The position numbers were made by a program, and so were the translations under genes. From a bacterium (GTDB taxonomy: Bacteria; Electryoneota; RPQS01), in assembly GCA_036504735.1 (NCBI GenBank), contig DASXUQ010000002.1, positions 124,001 through 188,000 of the forward strand: a stretch of DNA of 64,000 nt, in the 5' to 3' direction. Shown here one piece after another: positions 45,633 to 55,910 of this stretch (position 1 is the stretch's first letter; every line of letters starts with the position of its first letter). The notes beneath the pieces are model-generated. The model saw only the letters and a list, made by a program, of their open reading frames with translations, was not told the origin of the DNA and ran no database searches.

Positions 45633-46526
45633 ATGAGAACTCTTGCTCTGATTTTCGGACTTGCTCTGTGCGCCGCGCTCGCGTTCGGAACGGTGGACCT
45701 CGCGCATTTCGAAGCCATTCCCGGCTCGGGACAGGTGCGTTTCCAGTGGGGCACCACCACTGAAACCAACAACTACTTTTTCGAGATCTGGCGCAACGAC
45801 ACCTCGCAGGTGCAGATCACGGGACACGGCACGACCACGCAGCCGTGGGAATACTCCTGGACCGACCTGCATGCGGTCAACGAGACCCGTTACCGCTATA
45901 CGCTGAAGACCGGCAGCACGTCGGGACGCGATTCCATCGCCAGCGTGATCGTGATTCCCCCGCACTGGGTAGCGCTCGGCAATTTTCTGACCCATGGCGG
46001 TCCGCGACTGGCGCAGCTTAACTGGGTAGCCTTAAGCGAGATCAACAACGTGCGCTTCGAGATTTTCCGCAACGGCACGTGGGTGGCGTCGGTAACCGGA
46101 CACTCCAGCAACGTCCCTCACAACTACGCGTGGACCGATACGCTGGTGAACCATGGCGCCACCTATGAGTACTCGCTGTGGGCGGTAAACGTGGATGCTG
46201 CGCGCGATTCCCTCGCCACCTCCACGATTACACTCGGCGCGGACGAACTGCGCGCGCCGCTGCCACAGAGCGCGAAACTGTCGGCCTATCCCAACCCCTT
46301 CAATCCGGCGACAACACTCTCCTTCACCCTGACTGCGCCGCAGCGCCTGACGGTTACGGTCTATGACCTTAACGGTCGCGAGCGGCAGACGCTGGCGCGC
46401 GATCTGTTCGCCACCGGCGAGCACCGTCTGACCTTCGACGCGTCGGCGCTCCCCACAGGAGTCTATGTGGCCCGCATCACCGGCGAGCAGTTTAATGCCT
46501 CGCAGAAGCTGCTGCTGCTGAAGTAG
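45633..46526 (+). CDS. Secreted FN3-like protein with FlgD-type sorting domain
   Basis: 297 aa. GGAGGGAA just before the ATG; signal peptide to about residue 18. Two FN3-like repeats with ETNNYFFEIWRND and SEINNVRFEIFRNG motifs, each followed by a YAWTDTLV-type strand. The end has YPNPFNPATTLSFTLT, VYDLNGRERQT and the tail QKLLLLK. Likely a small surface or extracellular protein. It follows the membrane protein by 22 bp and may share its transcript. Confidence 0.85.
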   Translation: MRTLALIFGLALCAALAFGTVDLAHFEAIPGSGQVRFQWGTTTETNNYFFEIWRNDTSQVQITGHGTTTQPWEYSWTDLHAVNETRYRYTLKTGSTSGRDSIASVIVIPPHWVALGNFLTHGGPRLAQLNWVALSEINNVRFEIFRNGTWVASVTGHSSNVPHNYAWTDTLVNHGATYEYSLWAVNVDAARDSLATSTITLGADELRAPLPQSAKLSAYPNPFNPATTLSFTLTAPQRLTVTVYDLNGRERQTLARDLFATGEHRLTFDASALPTGVYVARITGEQFNASQKLLLLK

Positions 46527-46548
46527 CCGCCGTGATCACCGCCTATGC

Positions 46549-46578
46549 AAAGAGCCCCGCATCGCGCGGGGCTCTTTT
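46549..46578. terminator. Bidirectional terminator between convergent genes
   Basis: GAGCCCCGC/GCGGGGCTC stem (46552-46560 with 46566-46574), 5-nt loop, AAA before and TTTT after, serving the genes ending at 46526 and 46603. Confidence 0.9.
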
Positions 46579-46602
46579 GTTGTGATCCAATGGGAAGAGA
46601 AG

Positions 46603-49347
46603 CTACTTCAACAGTATCAGCTTCTGTGTCTGACGCACTTCTCCGGCTTCGAGCACCGCGAAGTAAAGACCGGAGGAATACTCACCGGCATTCCATGTCA
46701 GCTCATGCGCTCCCGCCGGCATCATTCCGTCCATCAGCACAGCCACCTGCTGCCCGAGCATATTGTAGATGGCCAGCCGCACATGCCTCATCGCCGACAG
46801 ATCGAATCGCAGCGTGGTGACAGGATTGAAAGGATTGGGATAACTCGGGTGAAGCACTGTGCTGCGCGGAAGCGGTGCAGGAGGCGGTGTTGGTACATCC
46901 AGATTCATCGAGCGCAGGGTGTCGATGCAGGCGGACAGAATCGTCTGCGCGTCGCTCTCGTGCAGGAAGTACAACGGGAAAGTGAGCACGATCTCACCGG
47001 GACCGATCACTCCACACGGCTGGTTGGAAAAGCCGGAGCTGTCGGTGGACAGCACTACGGTGCGGTAGAGCACGCTCGTGTTGCCGGTTGGCCAGAGCAG
47101 GTCCACCTCCGGTAAATAGTCATAGCGGTTGGTGCCGAAGCGGATGAAATGCACCCGCGCCGTGTCCAGCGCGAAGCTCGGAAATCCGGAATGCGCTGAG
47201 GTGGCGCCGGAGAACTGCATGCCCGGCCGGTTCACATGATACATCGACGCGTAAACCGAATCGAGCTGCAGCGGAGCGAGCGATGCCCACGTCGCCGTGG
47301 CGCGGTTGATGCCTTCGGCCAGATGCAGGGTTCCCGCGCAGAATTCCCGGGAAATGCGCAGCAGTCTGCCGCCCGCGGCAACATAGCGGCGCAGCGCATC
47401 CTCTCGCGTGTCATTGCTGGACGTGGCGCGGTTCTCGTTGCACCAGATGACCAGATCATAGCGCGCCAGCGAGTCGGTGGTGCCGCACCCCGGTTCGCGG
47501 CAGTAGTCGAAGGGCTGGCCGATGGCCGTCATCAGGCGTTGATAAAGCGCGGTGGCGCTGTCGGCGGGAATGGCTCCCGCAGCCGGTGTGCCGGGCGCGG
47601 TTTCATCCATCACCAGAATGCGGCTCTGCGGAGCCCACGGCACCAGATCTACCGAATCGCTGTAGAAACTGTAGATTCCGAGGTCGTTGACGGCCTGCAC
47701 ACGGTAGATATTGTCATAGCCGCGACGGGGAGTGTTGTCCTGATAGGCCGGGGCAGTGGTTGCAAAGAGCGCGGTATCCACGACACCCGAGGTCAGGCGG
47801 GTCGTTCGAGTGACACGGTAGCCGGTCACATTCGGCTCGGAGCTTGGGTTCCAATTCAGTGTAACGGCGCCCTGCTCGGTGTGTCCGCTGAGGCCGGTCA
47901 CCGGAAGCGCGGCGCCCACACGGCTCAGCACTTCGGCATAGACGCTGCCCTGCCCGCTGGTGTCGCGTGTCTCCAGTTGGAAGAGCCAGTCCGTGCCGTT
48001 TTGCAGCCCGGTGACAGTGAAGGTGGTGTCGGTGATCAGCGCGGTGTTGAATTGTTCCTGCTGGCCTGCTCCGGCGGAATCACGTCCGAAGAGATTGTAA
48101 CCGATGAAGGTGCCGATGCTGGGCGGACTCCAGGCGAGCGTGACTGTTCCCGACGTACTGGATACGACGTGGAAGTTCTCGGCGGGTGCGGGTGGATGGT
48201 AGTTGTATCCGGAATCAAAGAGAGCCTGCGCGCGCGCCGCGTTGACATCCAGCGAGTCCAGGTTAGCACCCGAGAGAAAGGCCACGCTGATGTAGAGCGT
48301 GCTGTCGGGCGCAAGCTCAAATCCATTGGTGGCTGCGGGACCGAAACAGAGCAGCATCCGCCAATCGTCCACATGGCTCGACGTGTCCGATGAGTTTCCG
48401 GAGGACATGAGGCTGTACTTGTCCTCATCGACAGGCGGATCACCGCCGGTTAGACGGGCAAAGTTGCGAAACGTGATGCGAAGCTGATCCAGCGGCACCG
48501 GAGCGCCGGTAACCTTCATCGCCCATAGGCCGGGCGTGGGTGCGCCTCTCCAGAAATTGTATTTGCCCTGCACGGCCATCAGGCGGGTGTCATCATAGAA
48601 ATTGCCGTCATGGGCGGAGGCATTGTCGCCGGTCTCACCTGCTGCGCCGATATCCGGATCGGCAAACAGAGCGAGATACACGTGATGCAGCGGATCGAGT
48701 CCCATATTGTGAATAAGGTAATCCACGAAGATGATGTCCCGCGCGATGTATCCCGGCCAGACGTGGGTACGCTGCGCGATGTGCACGCTGAGCGGCACAT
48801 GGCCGTCGGGATCCATGCTGCGAACAAAGACAGGGGAAATGCTGTCCTGAAAGGCCGCATAGAACTCTTCGTAAGCACGGATCGAGTCCAGGCGCTCATA
48901 GAGCCGGCCACGATACTGAGTCAGACAGCAGGACTGCACCCACCAGTCGGCACTGGGATTTTGTGGAGGGTGCGTGCCGATATGCTCGGGCCAGAACTCC
49001 TCGGTGCCATTGTCACCGTCGGTGGTTGTGCTCACGCGGTGGCCAGCACCAATTTCCGCACCGACCCACACGCCGGCGGAAAAGAGAAAGTTGTTTCCGC
49101 TGTTAATCGGCCACTCCCAACCGTGATAGCCCGAAGTGGCATTGGGGTTGCCCCATACGCCGTAGTTGGAAAGCGTGGTACGAACCGCGCCCATCCGATG
49201 CTCCATAAGTGAGAACGTCGCGGCAGGATCGGCGTCATCGAGGCGAACCGTGCCGCGAACGGTGTGTTCGACAGCCGGGCGGGCAAAGCCAGCGCTCAGG
49301 ATGGCGCTCATCAGCAGGGCAAGCAGGACGATTCCGAGAGCCTTCAT
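46603..49347 (-). CDS. Large secreted FN3 protein with FlgD-type sorting domain
   Basis: 914 aa; AAGGAGAAAG before the ATG. Signal peptide to about residue 22. Residues 50-385 form a conserved exported module of FCB bacteria (NYGVWGNP, FSAGVWVGAEIG, TRLMAVQ..., SVAFLSGANLDSL). Two FN3 domains (AWSPPSIGTFIGYNLFG; LNWNPSSEPNVTGYRVTRT) come next, followed by a ThuA-like/glutamine-amidotransferase-like segment (YDLVIWCNENRATSS, YVAAGGRLLRISREF). The end is YPNPFNPVTTLRFDLS, IYNMLGQQVAV, and QKLILLK. Probably exported to the surface. No enzyme active site was identified with certainty. Confidence 0.9.
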   Translation of the reverse strand: MKALGIVLLALLMSAILSAGFARPAVEHTVRGTVRLDDADPAATFSLMEHRMGAVRTTLSNYGVWGNPNATSGYHGWEWPINSGNNFLFSAGVWVGAEIGAGHRVSTTTDGDNGTEEFWPEHIGTHPPQNPSADWWVQSCCLTQYRGRLYERLDSIRAYEEFYAAFQDSISPVFVRSMDPDGHVPLSVHIAQRTHVWPGYIARDIIFVDYLIHNMGLDPLHHVYLALFADPDIGAAGETGDNASAHDGNFYDDTRLMAVQGKYNFWRGAPTPGLWAMKVTGAPVPLDQLRITFRNFARLTGGDPPVDEDKYSLMSSGNSSDTSSHVDDWRMLLCFGPAATNGFELAPDSTLYISVAFLSGANLDSLDVNAARAQALFDSGYNYHPPAPAENFHVVSSTSGTVTLAWSPPSIGTFIGYNLFGRDSAGAGQQEQFNTALITDTTFTVTGLQNGTDWLFQLETRDTSGQGSVYAEVLSRVGAALPVTGLSGHTEQGAVTLNWNPSSEPNVTGYRVTRTTRLTSGVVDTALFATTAPAYQDNTPRRGYDNIYRVQAVNDLGIYSFYSDSVDLVPWAPQSRILVMDETAPGTPAAGAIPADSATALYQRLMTAIGQPFDYCREPGCGTTDSLARYDLVIWCNENRATSSNDTREDALRRYVAAGGRLLRISREFCAGTLHLAEGINRATATWASLAPLQLDSVYASMYHVNRPGMQFSGATSAHSGFPSFALDTARVHFIRFGTNRYDYLPEVDLLWPTGNTSVLYRTVVLSTDSSGFSNQPCGVIGPGEIVLTFPLYFLHESDAQTILSACIDTLRSMNLDVPTPPPAPLPRSTVLHPSYPNPFNPVTTLRFDLSAMRHVRLAIYNMLGQQVAVLMDGMMPAGAHELTWNAGEYSSGLYFAVLEAGEVRQTQKLILLK

Positions 49348-51131: not shown

Positions 51132-51377
51132 ATGATGGAATTACTTCAAGCCGATTCTGTATATGATGCCGCCGGGTTGGGATGCGGCGAACTGGCGATG
51201 GCGCTGATGAAAGCGATCAAGGCGATTGAGCCGGGTCAGCTTCTGGAATTCCGCGCCGACGACACAGGCGCCGTCGTGGATATTCCCGCGTGGTGCGGAA
51301 TGACGGGACATAAATTGGTTGCCGGGCCGGCCGGCATTAAGAGTAATAGTTACTTTATTCGAAAGAAGGAAACGTAA
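51132..51377 (+). CDS. TusA-like sulfur-carrier protein
   Basis: 81 aa. TusA/SirA/YedF fold: DAAGLGCGELAMALMKAIKAIEPGQLLEF, then ADDTGAVVDIPAWCGMTGHKL. Cys18 is at the place of the TusA persulfide Cys; the usual CPxP is CGEL. Cys55 (PAWCGMT) is an extra Cys seen in the anaerobe-type group. AGGA lies directly before the ATG at 51132; an ATG at 51135 is an alternative. First gene of the TusA-DsrE-TusA/OsmC-MetE cluster, 3 bp before the DsrE gene. Confidence 0.85.
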   Translation: MMELLQADSVYDAAGLGCGELAMALMKAIKAIEPGQLLEFRADDTGAVVDIPAWCGMTGHKLVAGPAGIKSNSYFIRKKET

Positions 51378-51380
51378 ATC

Positions 51381-51740
51381 ATGGCGAAGTTGCTTATCAG
51401 TATTACCAATGCCAAGAATGACGCGGACCGGGCGACGGTGGGCTTTGTGGTGGCCAACGCTTCAGTGGCGTCGGGTGTGGAGACCGTGGTGTTTCTGAGC
51501 ACAGAAGGCGTACGGCTCGCGCAGCAGGGATATGCCGACAGCATTCACGAGGAAGGCTTTGCGCCGCTGAAGGAATTGATGGATAATTATGTCGGAGCCG
51601 GCGGGACGATCTGGGTATGCTCGCCGTGCTTCAAGAAGCGCGGCCTGAATGAGAGCAAACTGACAGGCAACACGGCGATTGTGGGCGGGGCCAAGGTGGT
51701 GGAGTTTCTGGTGACGGGTGGAAGTTCGATTACATATTGA
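51381..51740 (+). CDS. DsrE/DsrF-like protein
   Basis: 119 aa. DsrE fold: LLISITNAKNDADRATVGFVVANASV, VVFLSTEGVRL, then LKELMDNYVGAGGTIWVC. Cys80 and Cys83 (VCSPCFKKRG) stand at the persulfide-bearing end of the domain. It receives or gives sulfur to TusA-type partners in characterised systems. AAGGAAACGT ribosome site lies inside the end of the preceding gene. Confidence 0.88.
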   Translation: MAKLLISITNAKNDADRATVGFVVANASVASGVETVVFLSTEGVRLAQQGYADSIHEEGFAPLKELMDNYVGAGGTIWVCSPCFKKRGLNESKLTGNTAIVGGAKVVEFLVTGGSSITY

Positions 51741-51749
51741 TGGCTCCTC

Positions 51750-52490
51750 ATGCTTGAACAGCCTCCTCAGATTACGGAAGACATTCCGGCCAGCGCGGTA
51801 TGCGACGGCGGCAATTTGGATTGCGGATCGGGATTGCTGCTGGTGATCCGCAAGGCGATGGATGCGGTACAACCGGGCGGCGTGCTGGAGATTCGCAGTA
51901 CGGAGACCTCCGTGTGTGAGGATCTTCCCGCGTGGTGCCGGATGACGCGCAATCCGTTTTTGGGATGGCGCAAAACGGAGGCTTCCAACAAGTTCTTCGT
52001 GCGGCGCGGAGATGACGCGGCATCCGAAGAGAAGACGGAACAAGCCGCACGGGATTTTGCGTGGCAGACGCGGGTGCGATGGTCGGGCGGGCCGACAACG
52101 AAAGTGTATGCGCGCAATCATGCGTGGGAGGCTGGGCAGCCGGCGAGCTTTGACGTGCAGGATGCCGCTCCGAGCGCGGTGGAATATCTGCTGGGAGCGG
52201 TCGGCTCGTGCCTGACGATGGGTTTTCAGATCCATGCGTCGCGGCGCGGGATTGTTGTCGAGCAGATCGAGATGGTGCTCAGCGGAAAAATCGACAATAT
52301 CTTCGTGTTCCTCGGCACGGAGACGGAAGGGCACAGCGGGTTCAAAGAGATTCACGGCACGGTGTATGTGCAGGCGGATGCGGAGGAGAACGTGCTACAG
52401 GAAATCTGGCGGCACACGGTGGAGGTTTCGCCTGTGTTGAATAGCATTGGACGCGGCGCGGCGATGGACATCAGCATGAGAGTGGTATGA
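51750..52490 (+). CDS. TusA-OsmC fusion protein
   Basis: 246 aa. Residues about 15-85 repeat the TusA fold of the first gene (NLDCGSGLLLVIRKAMDAVQ, Cys25; DLPAWCRMTRN, Cys63). Residues about 100-246 are OsmC/Ohr-like (KVYARNHAWEAGQPASFD, PSAVEYLLGAVGSCLTMGF with Cys154, ending MDISMRVV). The second Cys of OsmC, normally before the C-terminal helix, is replaced (HTVEVSPVL). So peroxidase chemistry is unlikely, and thiol or persulfide handling is more plausible. The stop overlaps the MetE start by 4 bp. Confidence 0.88.
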   Translation: MLEQPPQITEDIPASAVCDGGNLDCGSGLLLVIRKAMDAVQPGGVLEIRSTETSVCEDLPAWCRMTRNPFLGWRKTEASNKFFVRRGDDAASEEKTEQAARDFAWQTRVRWSGGPTTKVYARNHAWEAGQPASFDVQDAAPSAVEYLLGAVGSCLTMGFQIHASRRGIVVEQIEMVLSGKIDNIFVFLGTETEGHSGFKEIHGTVYVQADAEENVLQEIWRHTVEVSPVLNSIGRGAAMDISMRVV

Positions 52491-53653
52491 CCAATCGAAA
52501 CGGGATGCCGCTGTTTCCGGTAACCACAGTGGGAAGCCTGCCGCGCAGTGCGGCGATGCTCGATCTGTTGCGGCGGAAACAGCGCGGGAAAATCAGCGCG
52601 GAAGAGTTTCAGACAGGAGCGGATGCGGAGGTGCTGCGCGCACTGCGGGTGCAGGAAGAAGCAGGTGCGGATCTGGTGACGGACGGCGAGCAGCGGCGGG
52701 ACAATTTCTATTCGTTTATCGCGGACCGCACGGATGGCGTGACCCTTTACAGTCTGGCGGAGTTGCTCGACCACGTGGAAGACAAGGCCGCCTTCGAGCG
52801 GATCTTGCAGGCGCTGGATGTACCGGCCTTCGCGATCCGCAATCCGGTGGTGACGGGAAAGATTGCGAGACGGAAGACGTTGGCCGCAGAGGATGTGGCT
52901 TTTTTGAAACGGCACACGCAGAAACCGATTAAGGTTGCGCTGCCCGGACCGTATCTGTTGACACGCTCGATGTGGGTGAAGAGTCTCACGGCGGAGATTT
53001 ATCCTACCAAGGAGAGTCTCGGCGAAGATGTGGTGCGGCTGCTGCGTGAAGAGTTGCTGGCGCTGCGCGAAGCGGGCTGCGCCTTTGTGCAGTTCGATGA
53101 GCCGGTGCTGTCGGAAGTCGCGTTCGCCGGGCCACATGCGACGCATACGTTCATGTGCGCGGCACTGTCGGAGAAGGCAAGTCCCGAAAGCGAACTGAAC
53201 TTTGCGGTGGAGCTGATTAACGAGGTGGTGAAGGGCGTGGACGGGATCCGCACGGGATTGCATGTCTGCCGGGGCAACTGGAGCCGCAAGGAAGATGTAC
53301 TGCTGGCGGGAGCGTATGATCCACTGGTGCCGTATTTTTCGCGGATGAACGTCGACCAGTTTGTGCTGGAATATGCCACAGATCGTGCAGGAAGTGTGGA
53401 CGTGCTGGCGGCGCTTCCCGAAGAGAAAGAGATTGGTTTAGGCGTGGTGAATCCGCGGACGTCGGAGATCGAGTCTGTGGAGTTCATTGTGGACAAGGTG
53501 CGCGGACTTTTGAAGAAGCGGGCGGCAGAGAAGATATTTTTGAATCCGGATTGCGGGTTCGGAACCTTTGCCGATCGGCCGGTGAGCACGGAAGAGATTG
53601 CGGGACAGAAGCTCTCGGCAATCAGTGCGGCGGCAAAGGTGCTGCGCGCATAA
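52487..53653 (+). CDS. Short (core) MetE-type methyltransferase
   Basis: 388 aa, only the C-terminal catalytic barrel of cobalamin-independent methionine synthase; the 360-residue N-terminal domain of MetE is absent. Start motif VTTVGSLPRS, GADLVTDGEQRRDNFY, FVQFDEPVLSE. Predicted zinc ligands H259 and C261 (GLHVCRGN), E295 and C356 (NPDCGFGTF). Such core enzymes are known in archaea, with varied methyl donors. Translationally coupled (ATGA) to the TusA-OsmC gene, so the substrate may be a carried thiol rather than only homocysteine. Confidence 0.9.
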   Translation: MTNRNGMPLFPVTTVGSLPRSAAMLDLLRRKQRGKISAEEFQTGADAEVLRALRVQEEAGADLVTDGEQRRDNFYSFIADRTDGVTLYSLAELLDHVEDKAAFERILQALDVPAFAIRNPVVTGKIARRKTLAAEDVAFLKRHTQKPIKVALPGPYLLTRSMWVKSLTAEIYPTKESLGEDVVRLLREELLALREAGCAFVQFDEPVLSEVAFAGPHATHTFMCAALSEKASPESELNFAVELINEVVKGVDGIRTGLHVCRGNWSRKEDVLLAGAYDPLVPYFSRMNVDQFVLEYATDRAGSVDVLAALPEEKEIGLGVVNPRTSEIESVEFIVDKVRGLLKKRAAEKIFLNPDCGFGTFADRPVSTEEIAGQKLSAISAAAKVLRA

Positions 53654-53726: not shown

Positions 53727-55910
53727 CTATTTCATCAGCACCATCTTATTTACGATTTGGGTCGGGCCGGAGGTCAGAACGGCAAAGTAGATGCCGGAGG
53801 AAACGGCGGCGGCGTTCCAGAGGACCTCGTGGCGTCCGGCAGGTTGCATGCCGTCGGTGAGGCGAGCCACTTCCTGACCAAGAACATTCAGGACTCGCAA
53901 TGTAGCTGGACCATTTCGCCGCAAATCAAAGGTAATGCGTGTGCAGGAATTGAAGGGATTGGGATAGGCTTGCAGATCGAAACTCTGCACAACCTCTTTC
54001 GAGCTGGCGGCATTCACCGTGGGCGCACCCCAGCGCATGATCACGCCGTTCTGTCCCACAAGGTAACCGAGTGAATTGTTGACGATGCACATGTCATCCA
54101 CGTACTCGCCAACCGCAAAGGTCATCGGTGCCCAGGTTTCACCGCCATCGTCGGTGGTAAAGACTCTTTCCGGAGGGTGAAAGCCTGATCCGAGCACCCA
54201 GCCATGGAGCGAGTCAGTAAAGGTCACGCGGCGGAGATCGCTAATGTAACCGAACATCGCCAAGGACAGGCGTTCCCATGTTTCGCCCCCGTCAGACGTG
54301 CGGCCGAGCCACACGGAATCACGGTTGGTGGTGAGACCTACAATCCAGCCGTGGCGCGGATCGGGGAAGTCAACGTCGGCATAGTGGAAGACGTCGGAAC
54401 CGAGTTGCACCCGGTTCCAGTCGGCGCCGCCATTGGTAGTGTGCATGACCAACCCGGAGGATCCGACCGCCCAGCCATCCAACGATGAGGTCATGCAGAT
54501 GTCGCTGACTCCCGAGCCAAAACCGCTGTATTTGATTTCCCAGTTCAGGCCTCCGTCGGTGCTGTGCCGAATGGCCGTCGAGTCGCCGTCCGGATTGGAA
54601 TACCACATATCACTGCACACCCACAACTCCGAGGAGCTGATGGGCAGGATACCGGTAATATATTGGTTCCAGCCGGTCTCAGTCTCCTGCCAAGATTGAC
54701 CGCCGTCGGTGGTGCGGGCCATTCGGTTGTAACCGCCCAGCCAGCCGTGAGCCGCATCAATGAAAGCCACCTTGGCGTAATAGGCCTGTGGATTCATCGT
54801 CACGTCCTGCCAATGTTCACCGGCATCCGCGGTGTGGACGAGCGCTCCGTCGCCGACGGTCCAGCCCTCGGTTTCGCTGACAAAGCTCACCGAGCGGAAT
54901 ATGCAATGGGGGCCGCGGTCCAGCGTGGCCCACGAGGCGCCGCCGTTAGTGGTCTTGCGGATTTGCCCCCACTGCCCTACATGCCACGCGGTGTTCGGGT
55001 CAATGGCGTCGATCGCCGTGTTGTTATAGAACTCCGTGCTCTGCAGCGTCCACGTGGTTCCTCCATCTGTGGTATGCAGCAGCGCGCTCGAGCCTGTGAT
55101 CCAGCCGTTCTGAGGATCCACGAAGCGAATCTGGTCGATGTCGTAATCATGCGCAAGTGCACGCGGCTCCCAGGTCAAGCCACCGTCCGTAGTCTTGTAC
55201 AGGTTGGTGACGGGGGTGCCGCCCCGGTAGCCGGTACCGCCGACCCAACCGTTCACCGAATCAAGGAAGAAGATGGTGGGAGAAACCGAAGGTCCGGCGG
55301 GTAATCCGGTTTGGCTCCAGTTGAGGCCGCCATCGTCGGTGCGGTAGACTACGATCTGACTATCGGATTCACTGACGCCGCAGGCCCAGCCACGCCGGGC
55401 ATCCACGAAAGTGACGTCGATATACGCGCCCCAATCACCTGTTGCCTGAGAAACCCAGTTTTCGCCTCCATCCTCCGTATGGAAGACGGTGCTGGCGCTG
55501 ACCGCCCAACCGGTATCCGGCGTGACGAAACTGGCACTATTGATACGGTAACCGTCACAACCATGGCTGGTCCAGGTCGCGCCGCCATCGGTGGTGCGCA
55601 TAGCGTTGCCGGGCGGATAGCCACTGGCGCCTTCGCCGAACACCCAGCCATTCTGTGCATCAAAGAACTTCACATCGAACCACCACATCGCCTCGGGCAG
55701 GCGCTGGGAAATCCACGTCGCGCCGCCATCTTCGGTCTTCAGGATTTCTCCGTAGTAGCCTACGGCCCAACCGGTGTTCGCGTCGATGAAATCCACATCG
55801 AGCAGATTGTGGGATGAGGGCCACGGGTTCTGCAGGTTCCAGTCGTAGGCCAGAGCCGTCGCACTTAAGGCACAGCACAAAATGAGGCACAAGCTAAGTT
55901 GCCGAATCAT
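53727..55910 (-). CDS. Ycf48/BNR-type propeller protein with FlgD-type sorting domain
   Basis: 727 aa; AAAGGAGGGTG before the ATG is a full ribosome site. Signal peptide to about 21. About 12-14 repeats of a D-x-x-x-GW-x-V-G strand followed by an Asp-box (TEDGGATW, TTDGGTTW, TTNGGASW) form one or two photosynthesis-assembly Ycf48-like propellers. The C-terminal ~85 residues are a FlgD-like sorting module (YPNPFNSCTRITFDL, VLNVLGQEVA, NKMVLMK). Exported protein; ligand unknown. Confidence 0.92.
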   Translation of the reverse strand: MIRQLSLCLILCCALSATALAYDWNLQNPWPSSHNLLDVDFIDANTGWAVGYYGEILKTEDGGATWISQRLPEAMWWFDVKFFDAQNGWVFGEGASGYPPGNAMRTTDGGATWTSHGCDGYRINSASFVTPDTGWAVSASTVFHTEDGGENWVSQATGDWGAYIDVTFVDARRGWACGVSESDSQIVVYRTDDGGLNWSQTGLPAGPSVSPTIFFLDSVNGWVGGTGYRGGTPVTNLYKTTDGGLTWEPRALAHDYDIDQIRFVDPQNGWITGSSALLHTTDGGTTWTLQSTEFYNNTAIDAIDPNTAWHVGQWGQIRKTTNGGASWATLDRGPHCIFRSVSFVSETEGWTVGDGALVHTADAGEHWQDVTMNPQAYYAKVAFIDAAHGWLGGYNRMARTTDGGQSWQETETGWNQYITGILPISSSELWVCSDMWYSNPDGDSTAIRHSTDGGLNWEIKYSGFGSGVSDICMTSSLDGWAVGSSGLVMHTTNGGADWNRVQLGSDVFHYADVDFPDPRHGWIVGLTTNRDSVWLGRTSDGGETWERLSLAMFGYISDLRRVTFTDSLHGWVLGSGFHPPERVFTTDDGGETWAPMTFAVGEYVDDMCIVNNSLGYLVGQNGVIMRWGAPTVNAASSKEVVQSFDLQAYPNPFNSCTRITFDLRRNGPATLRVLNVLGQEVARLTDGMQPAGRHEVLWNAAAVSSGIYFAVLTSGPTQIVNKMVLMK

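Follow-up and report, generated by a model that had tools for sequence, protein, structure and literature searches.

Why would genes for sulfur carriers stand in one operon with an enzyme of the methionine-synthase fold? The question arises from positions 51132-53653 of the window, that is, the whole stretch of 64,000 nucleotides analyzed here from a bacterium of the phylum Electryoneota (GTDB). Four open reading frames lie there on the plus strand, with intergenic gaps of 3, 9 and -4 bp. They are listed here together with one codon of the last gene.

51132..51377, plus strand, TusA-like sulfur carrier of 81 aa (Pfam PF01206, 45 bits; C18 and C55 kept in 47/47 relatives)
51381..51740, plus strand, DsrE-like protein of 119 aa with the motif C80-S-P-C83 (Pfam PF02635, 49.5 bits; both cysteines kept in 44/44)
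51750..52490, plus strand, TusA/OsmC fusion of 246 aa (OsmC, PF02566, 53.8 bits; TusA, PF01206, 30 bits)
52487..53653, plus strand, MetE-like zinc enzyme of the core form, 388 aa (PF01717 Meth_synt_2, 116 bits; MetE/MesD fold match)
53156..53158, plus strand, Cys224 codon TGC of the MetE-like enzyme (position occupied by UGA, predicted selenocysteine, in 15 related loci)

The Pfam matches of all four proteins exceed curated cut-offs and, with the reading frames, bear out the arrangement and gaps described in the initial annotation. The nearest solved structures are E. coli TusA, a DsrE-family protein, OsmC-like proteins, and MetE/MesD, one for each operon protein. The two TusA domains of the operon are the only ones detected in the 4.16 Mb genome. 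On one side the operon is flanked by a divergent signal peptidase gene and on the other by a convergent gene for a large protein. Large proteins with C-terminal YPNPFN-type sorting domains, which we take to be like those of FCB-group bacteria, are encoded at 45633-49347 and 53727-55910 of the window.

With the MetE-like protein as query against genome contigs, we recovered 50 loci whose best segments were 51-71% identical, and later loci were added. The order TusA-DsrE-TusA/OsmC-MetE, on one strand, was found in 55 of the 90 relatives that were fetched, a few of which are re-fetched copies. A further six of the 90 have DsrE-OsmC-MetE, and several of the remainder are loci cut by short flanks. 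Because so many relatives, from Bacillaceae to Planctomycetota, share the same order, the grouping is not due to chance; the survey of gene order proposed in the initial annotation thus found the four-gene unit conserved. Across the variants the MetE-like enzyme is constant and its partners change. In one arrangement OsmC lies 3' of MetE, with a rhodanese nearby at two loci (L031 and L034), and some operon types lack TusA and DsrE. In one clade (L116-L120), TusA and DsrE are followed by a fusion of TusA, a linker and MetE, and OsmC is absent. A second operon type, seen in Planctomycetota and Acidobacteriota, consists of OsmC, a substrate-binding-like protein, MetE and an acyl-CoA-dehydrogenase-like gene (L041:1814-5438, L109:7527-11540 and L104:7909-11893). 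Its substrate-binding-like protein looks cytoplasmic, belongs to the Rv1680 family and gives a weak selenate-binding match; this second type may serve an organosulfur or organoselenium pathway.

What kind of enzyme is the constant member? Its predicted structure has the fold of the MetE catalytic domain, and in a fold search it was 21-24% identical to solved MetE/Mes members. The zinc set that the initial annotation had listed (H259, C261, E295 and C356) is invariant in 53 sequences, save for one gap at 356. Residues S17, E68 and D204, the equivalents of S433, E484 and D599 in E. coli MetE, are kept in 53/53; the roles of the zinc and homocysteine-binding residues have been described (PMC7857596). 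The same zinc and homocysteine-binding residues are found in the core methionine synthases, MesA-MesD and core-MetE, which likewise have the MetE catalytic fold but lack the folate domain (PMC7857596, PMC7005905). One could suppose that the operon encodes a further folate-independent methionine synthase. It would methylate homocysteine, and TusA, DsrE and OsmC, in a role resembling that of MesX toward MesD, would provide the methyl donor or maintain Cys/Sec224 and the zinc site in a reduced state. The retained residues, the closeness of the MetE and MesD folds and the precedent of core synthases with partner proteins (PMC7857596) all speak for this possibility, yet we consider it unlikely. MetH scores over cut-off in 26 of 34 genomes, including that of the window, selenium genes occur among the neighbors, and no corrinoid partner was seen in the examined flanks. 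As the sole methionine synthase of these cells the enzyme is an unlikely candidate, given that distribution of MetH. It falls far short of all curated methionine-synthase models, the best match reaching 178.3 of 406 bits. Furthermore, the operon enzyme differs from MesA-MesD in having an extra Cys/Sec224, and its partners are TusA, DsrE and OsmC, whereas those of the Mes type are a corrinoid protein or MesX; the MesA-D paper makes no mention of TusA, DsrE or OsmC.

The initial annotation had also proposed that relayed sulfur becomes an acceptor thiol, other than homocysteine, that the MetE-like enzyme methylates. That proposal is supported in part. The link between relay and enzyme is real, given that the genes form a conserved unit, that no relay cysteine varies and that one clade has TusA and the enzyme as a single fused protein. 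An acceptor unlike homocysteine, however, is not supported, since the zinc and homocysteine-binding residues are invariant. The operon and the fusion connect the relay proteins with the enzyme under this proposal as well, but it conflicts with an invariant site for the homocysteine amino acid and leaves Cys/Sec224 and the selenium neighbors without a role, and we regard it as improbable.

Residue 224 is a new feature of the enzyme. Among 53 aligned sequences it is Cys in 38, an in-frame UGA (U) in 13 and Arg in two. Every relative with partner genes has Cys or UGA at this position. The two Arg224 members have no TusA, DsrE or OsmC partner, and the same is true of two more distant relatives with Pro or a gap. 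The window copy is of the Cys form, not the UGA form. Residue 224 sits on loop 214-232, the low-confidence part of an otherwise confident structure model, and the loop is accordingly predicted to be flexible or mobile.

Several lines of evidence indicate that the UGA is read as selenocysteine. In 15 loci from several phyla codon 224 is TGA, never TAA or TAG, in alignment with Cys224, and the frames 3' of it still match the MetE-like family strongly. In all 11 loci of one group (clade A), a 6-bp stem with the loop CGKGAY starts 12 nt past the UGA. Four third codon positions inside this stem are identical in 11/11 while seven outside it vary, as read from the alignment; a codon-position test made without alignment was left out, since indels confound it. 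A G early in the loop, at such spacing, agrees with the bacterial SECIS consensus. At an acidimicrobiid locus (L065) the stem is shifted relative to clade A, and at L087 and L091 the hairpin is weak and unconvincing. In a maximum-likelihood tree the Sec sequences fall in three places with supported branches between them, which suggests at least three independent changes between Cys and Sec at this residue. The split reading frames might instead be pseudogenes or assembly errors that contain no selenocysteine, and many of the loci do come from metagenome bins, and L068 carries a frameshift. To this we assign next to no probability, and we rejected it: the codon is always the same TGA across several phyla, the downstream frame is retained, third positions are frozen in the stem, only Cys replaces UGA in partner-bearing loci, and SelB is present. 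Judged by these sequence features, the UGA-type relatives look like a previously undescribed selenoprotein family. The May 2026 inventory, which covers 119 families of prokaryotic selenoproteins, does not include it; the Haft and Tolstoy 2025 families were compared as that review lists them (PMC13188914). A selenoprotein family predicted in the methionine-synthase fold would be an addition to the known inventory.

The genomes that carry the family are generally equipped for selenocysteine. SelB passes its cut-off in 40 of 42, the exceptions being two partial MAGs with the UGA form (G050 and G051), and tRNA-Sec scores above 55 bits in most; the window genome has both. Co-occurrence with selB reaches significance in Planctomycetota, at 29/31 versus 185/312 (p=6e-5), and is weak in Bacillaceae, at 46/48 versus 124/145 (p=0.07), statistics that ignore MAG completeness and phylogeny. 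The selB gene is common in these clades, and in the phylum of the window its co-occurrence carries no information. We therefore dropped SelB co-occurrence as stand-alone proof and, with base rates this high, count it as support only.

The neighborhoods also point to selenium. In Siminovitchia fortis (L022/L100) the operon is followed by selD, selA, tRNA-Sec and selB, with selD on the opposite strand and itself bearing a Sec motif. At the acidimicrobiid locus a Sec-type selD lies ~27 bp 3' of the UGA-type enzyme gene on the same strand; selD adjacency is confined to these two loci. In nine Bacillaceae the divergent neighbor of the operon belongs to one close cluster of LysR regulators. The four of these that were scanned are all over cut-off for NF040786, the selenium metabolism-associated LysR, as is a LysR about 2 kb from the UGA form in a gammaproteobacterium. 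Altogether, a LysR of the selenium type adjoins or lies near the operon in ten lineages, a subset of which was scanned against NF040786. Two Planctomycetota (L104 and L105) with selB some 8 kb away from the MetE gene were left out of this count, their operon type being different. Taken as a whole, these neighborhoods suggest that selenium metabolism is what benefits from the operon, and the gene set looks like a previously undescribed pathway.

The carrier proteins complete the picture. The two TusA cysteine pairs reported in the initial annotation, C18/C55 in the carrier and C25/C63 in the TusA domain of the fusion (TusA2), are present and invariant in relatives. Both cysteines of C80-x-P-C83 in DsrE are invariant as well (44/44); the initial annotation had mentioned neither these cysteines nor Cys/Sec224, and it had missed the connection with selenium genes. 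The OsmC domain of the window has a single Cys, compared with the two redox cysteines of OsmC/Ohr peroxidase, so the earlier description of a retained C154 and a lost second Cys is accurate for this copy. It does not extend to the family, in which position 154 is Cys in 33, Asp in 11 and Ala in eight of 52 sequences. C154 was rejected as a general relay thiol, since the residue is lost in Sec-type loci, where it is Ala or Asp in 11/11. In the same loci the N-terminal Cys of the fusion protein (C18 in the window) is replaced by Phe or Leu, again in 11/11.

Three features suggest that the relay and residue 224 exchange a chalcogen: the invariant carrier cysteines, the TusA fusion and the fact that Cys/Sec224 goes together with the carriers. 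Our preferred reading, in which we place about even confidence, is that the conserved operon is a relay for sulfane sulfur or selenium that exchanges with the zinc enzyme through Cys/Sec224 and is tied to selenium metabolism. The invariant cysteines of TusA, DsrE and TusA2 would hold the chalcogen in persulfide or perselenide form. These carriers would either load Cys/Sec224 with it or receive it from there; the residue sits on the mobile loop, which we infer can reach the zinc. The zinc would hold a homocysteine- or selenohomocysteine-type amino acid, and the product side would be connected with the selenium supply, most likely for SelD. Selenocysteine suits persulfide or perselenide exchange, and a neutral methyl selenide is a poor methyl donor, making a methyl ping-pong through Sec224 less likely.

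The in vivo selenium donor system for SelD is still unresolved (PMC13188914), and the operon, lying beside selD and the selenium LysR and found in cultured Bacillaceae, is a specific candidate. More tentatively, as a possibility that we rate well below the relay itself, the zinc MetE-fold (seleno)enzyme might use Cys/Sec224 to release or load selenium from a substrate of the selenohomocysteine or selenomethionine type, with TusA and DsrE delivering perselenide to SelD.

Comparison with known carriers shows both likeness and novelty. Where E. coli TusA has its CPxP motif the operon TusA has C-G, and its partner is a MetE-like enzyme. The two proteins share the TusA fold and both conserved cysteines, and the E. 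coli structures (PDB 1dcj, 3lvj) match. YedF, the selenium-associated TusA-DsrE fusion (TIGR03527; PMC5322559), resembles the operon in its order of TusA then DsrE and its occurrence in selenium-using bacteria. It differs in that the operon has separate TusA and DsrE genes, CxPC in place of the CGxC of YedF, and the coupling to TusA/OsmC and MetE. The presence of YedF did not separate genomes with the operon from those without it, so replacement of YedF is not indicated either way. DsrE-like and OsmC-like selenoproteins (PMC13188914) have related carrier folds, whereas in this family the predicted selenocysteine belongs to the MetE-like enzyme. Among NCBIfam models, NF041052 (OsmC_like_Se) comes closest to the operon OsmC domains, which score 23-42 bits, short of its cut-off of 95. 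No paper treating TusA, DsrE and OsmC together was found in the literature searched. What the operon adds is a MetE fold coupled to a persulfide-carrier relay, even through gene fusion.

One locus raises a different function. At L068:4184-7232, an ArsM-like methyltransferase, DsrE and a MerC-like gene accompany a UGA-type MetE that is broken by a shift of one base, which probably arose in assembly. A unit for metal or metalloid detoxification, with Sec/Cys224 as the binding site for mercury or arsenic species, would account for such company, but this is a single locus and the other flanks show no recurrent metal-resistance genes, making that function very improbable for the family. A transporter of the BCCT type does recur near the operon in three Bacilli flanks (L022, L049 and L066), and in L022 and L066 it is of the glycine betaine type.
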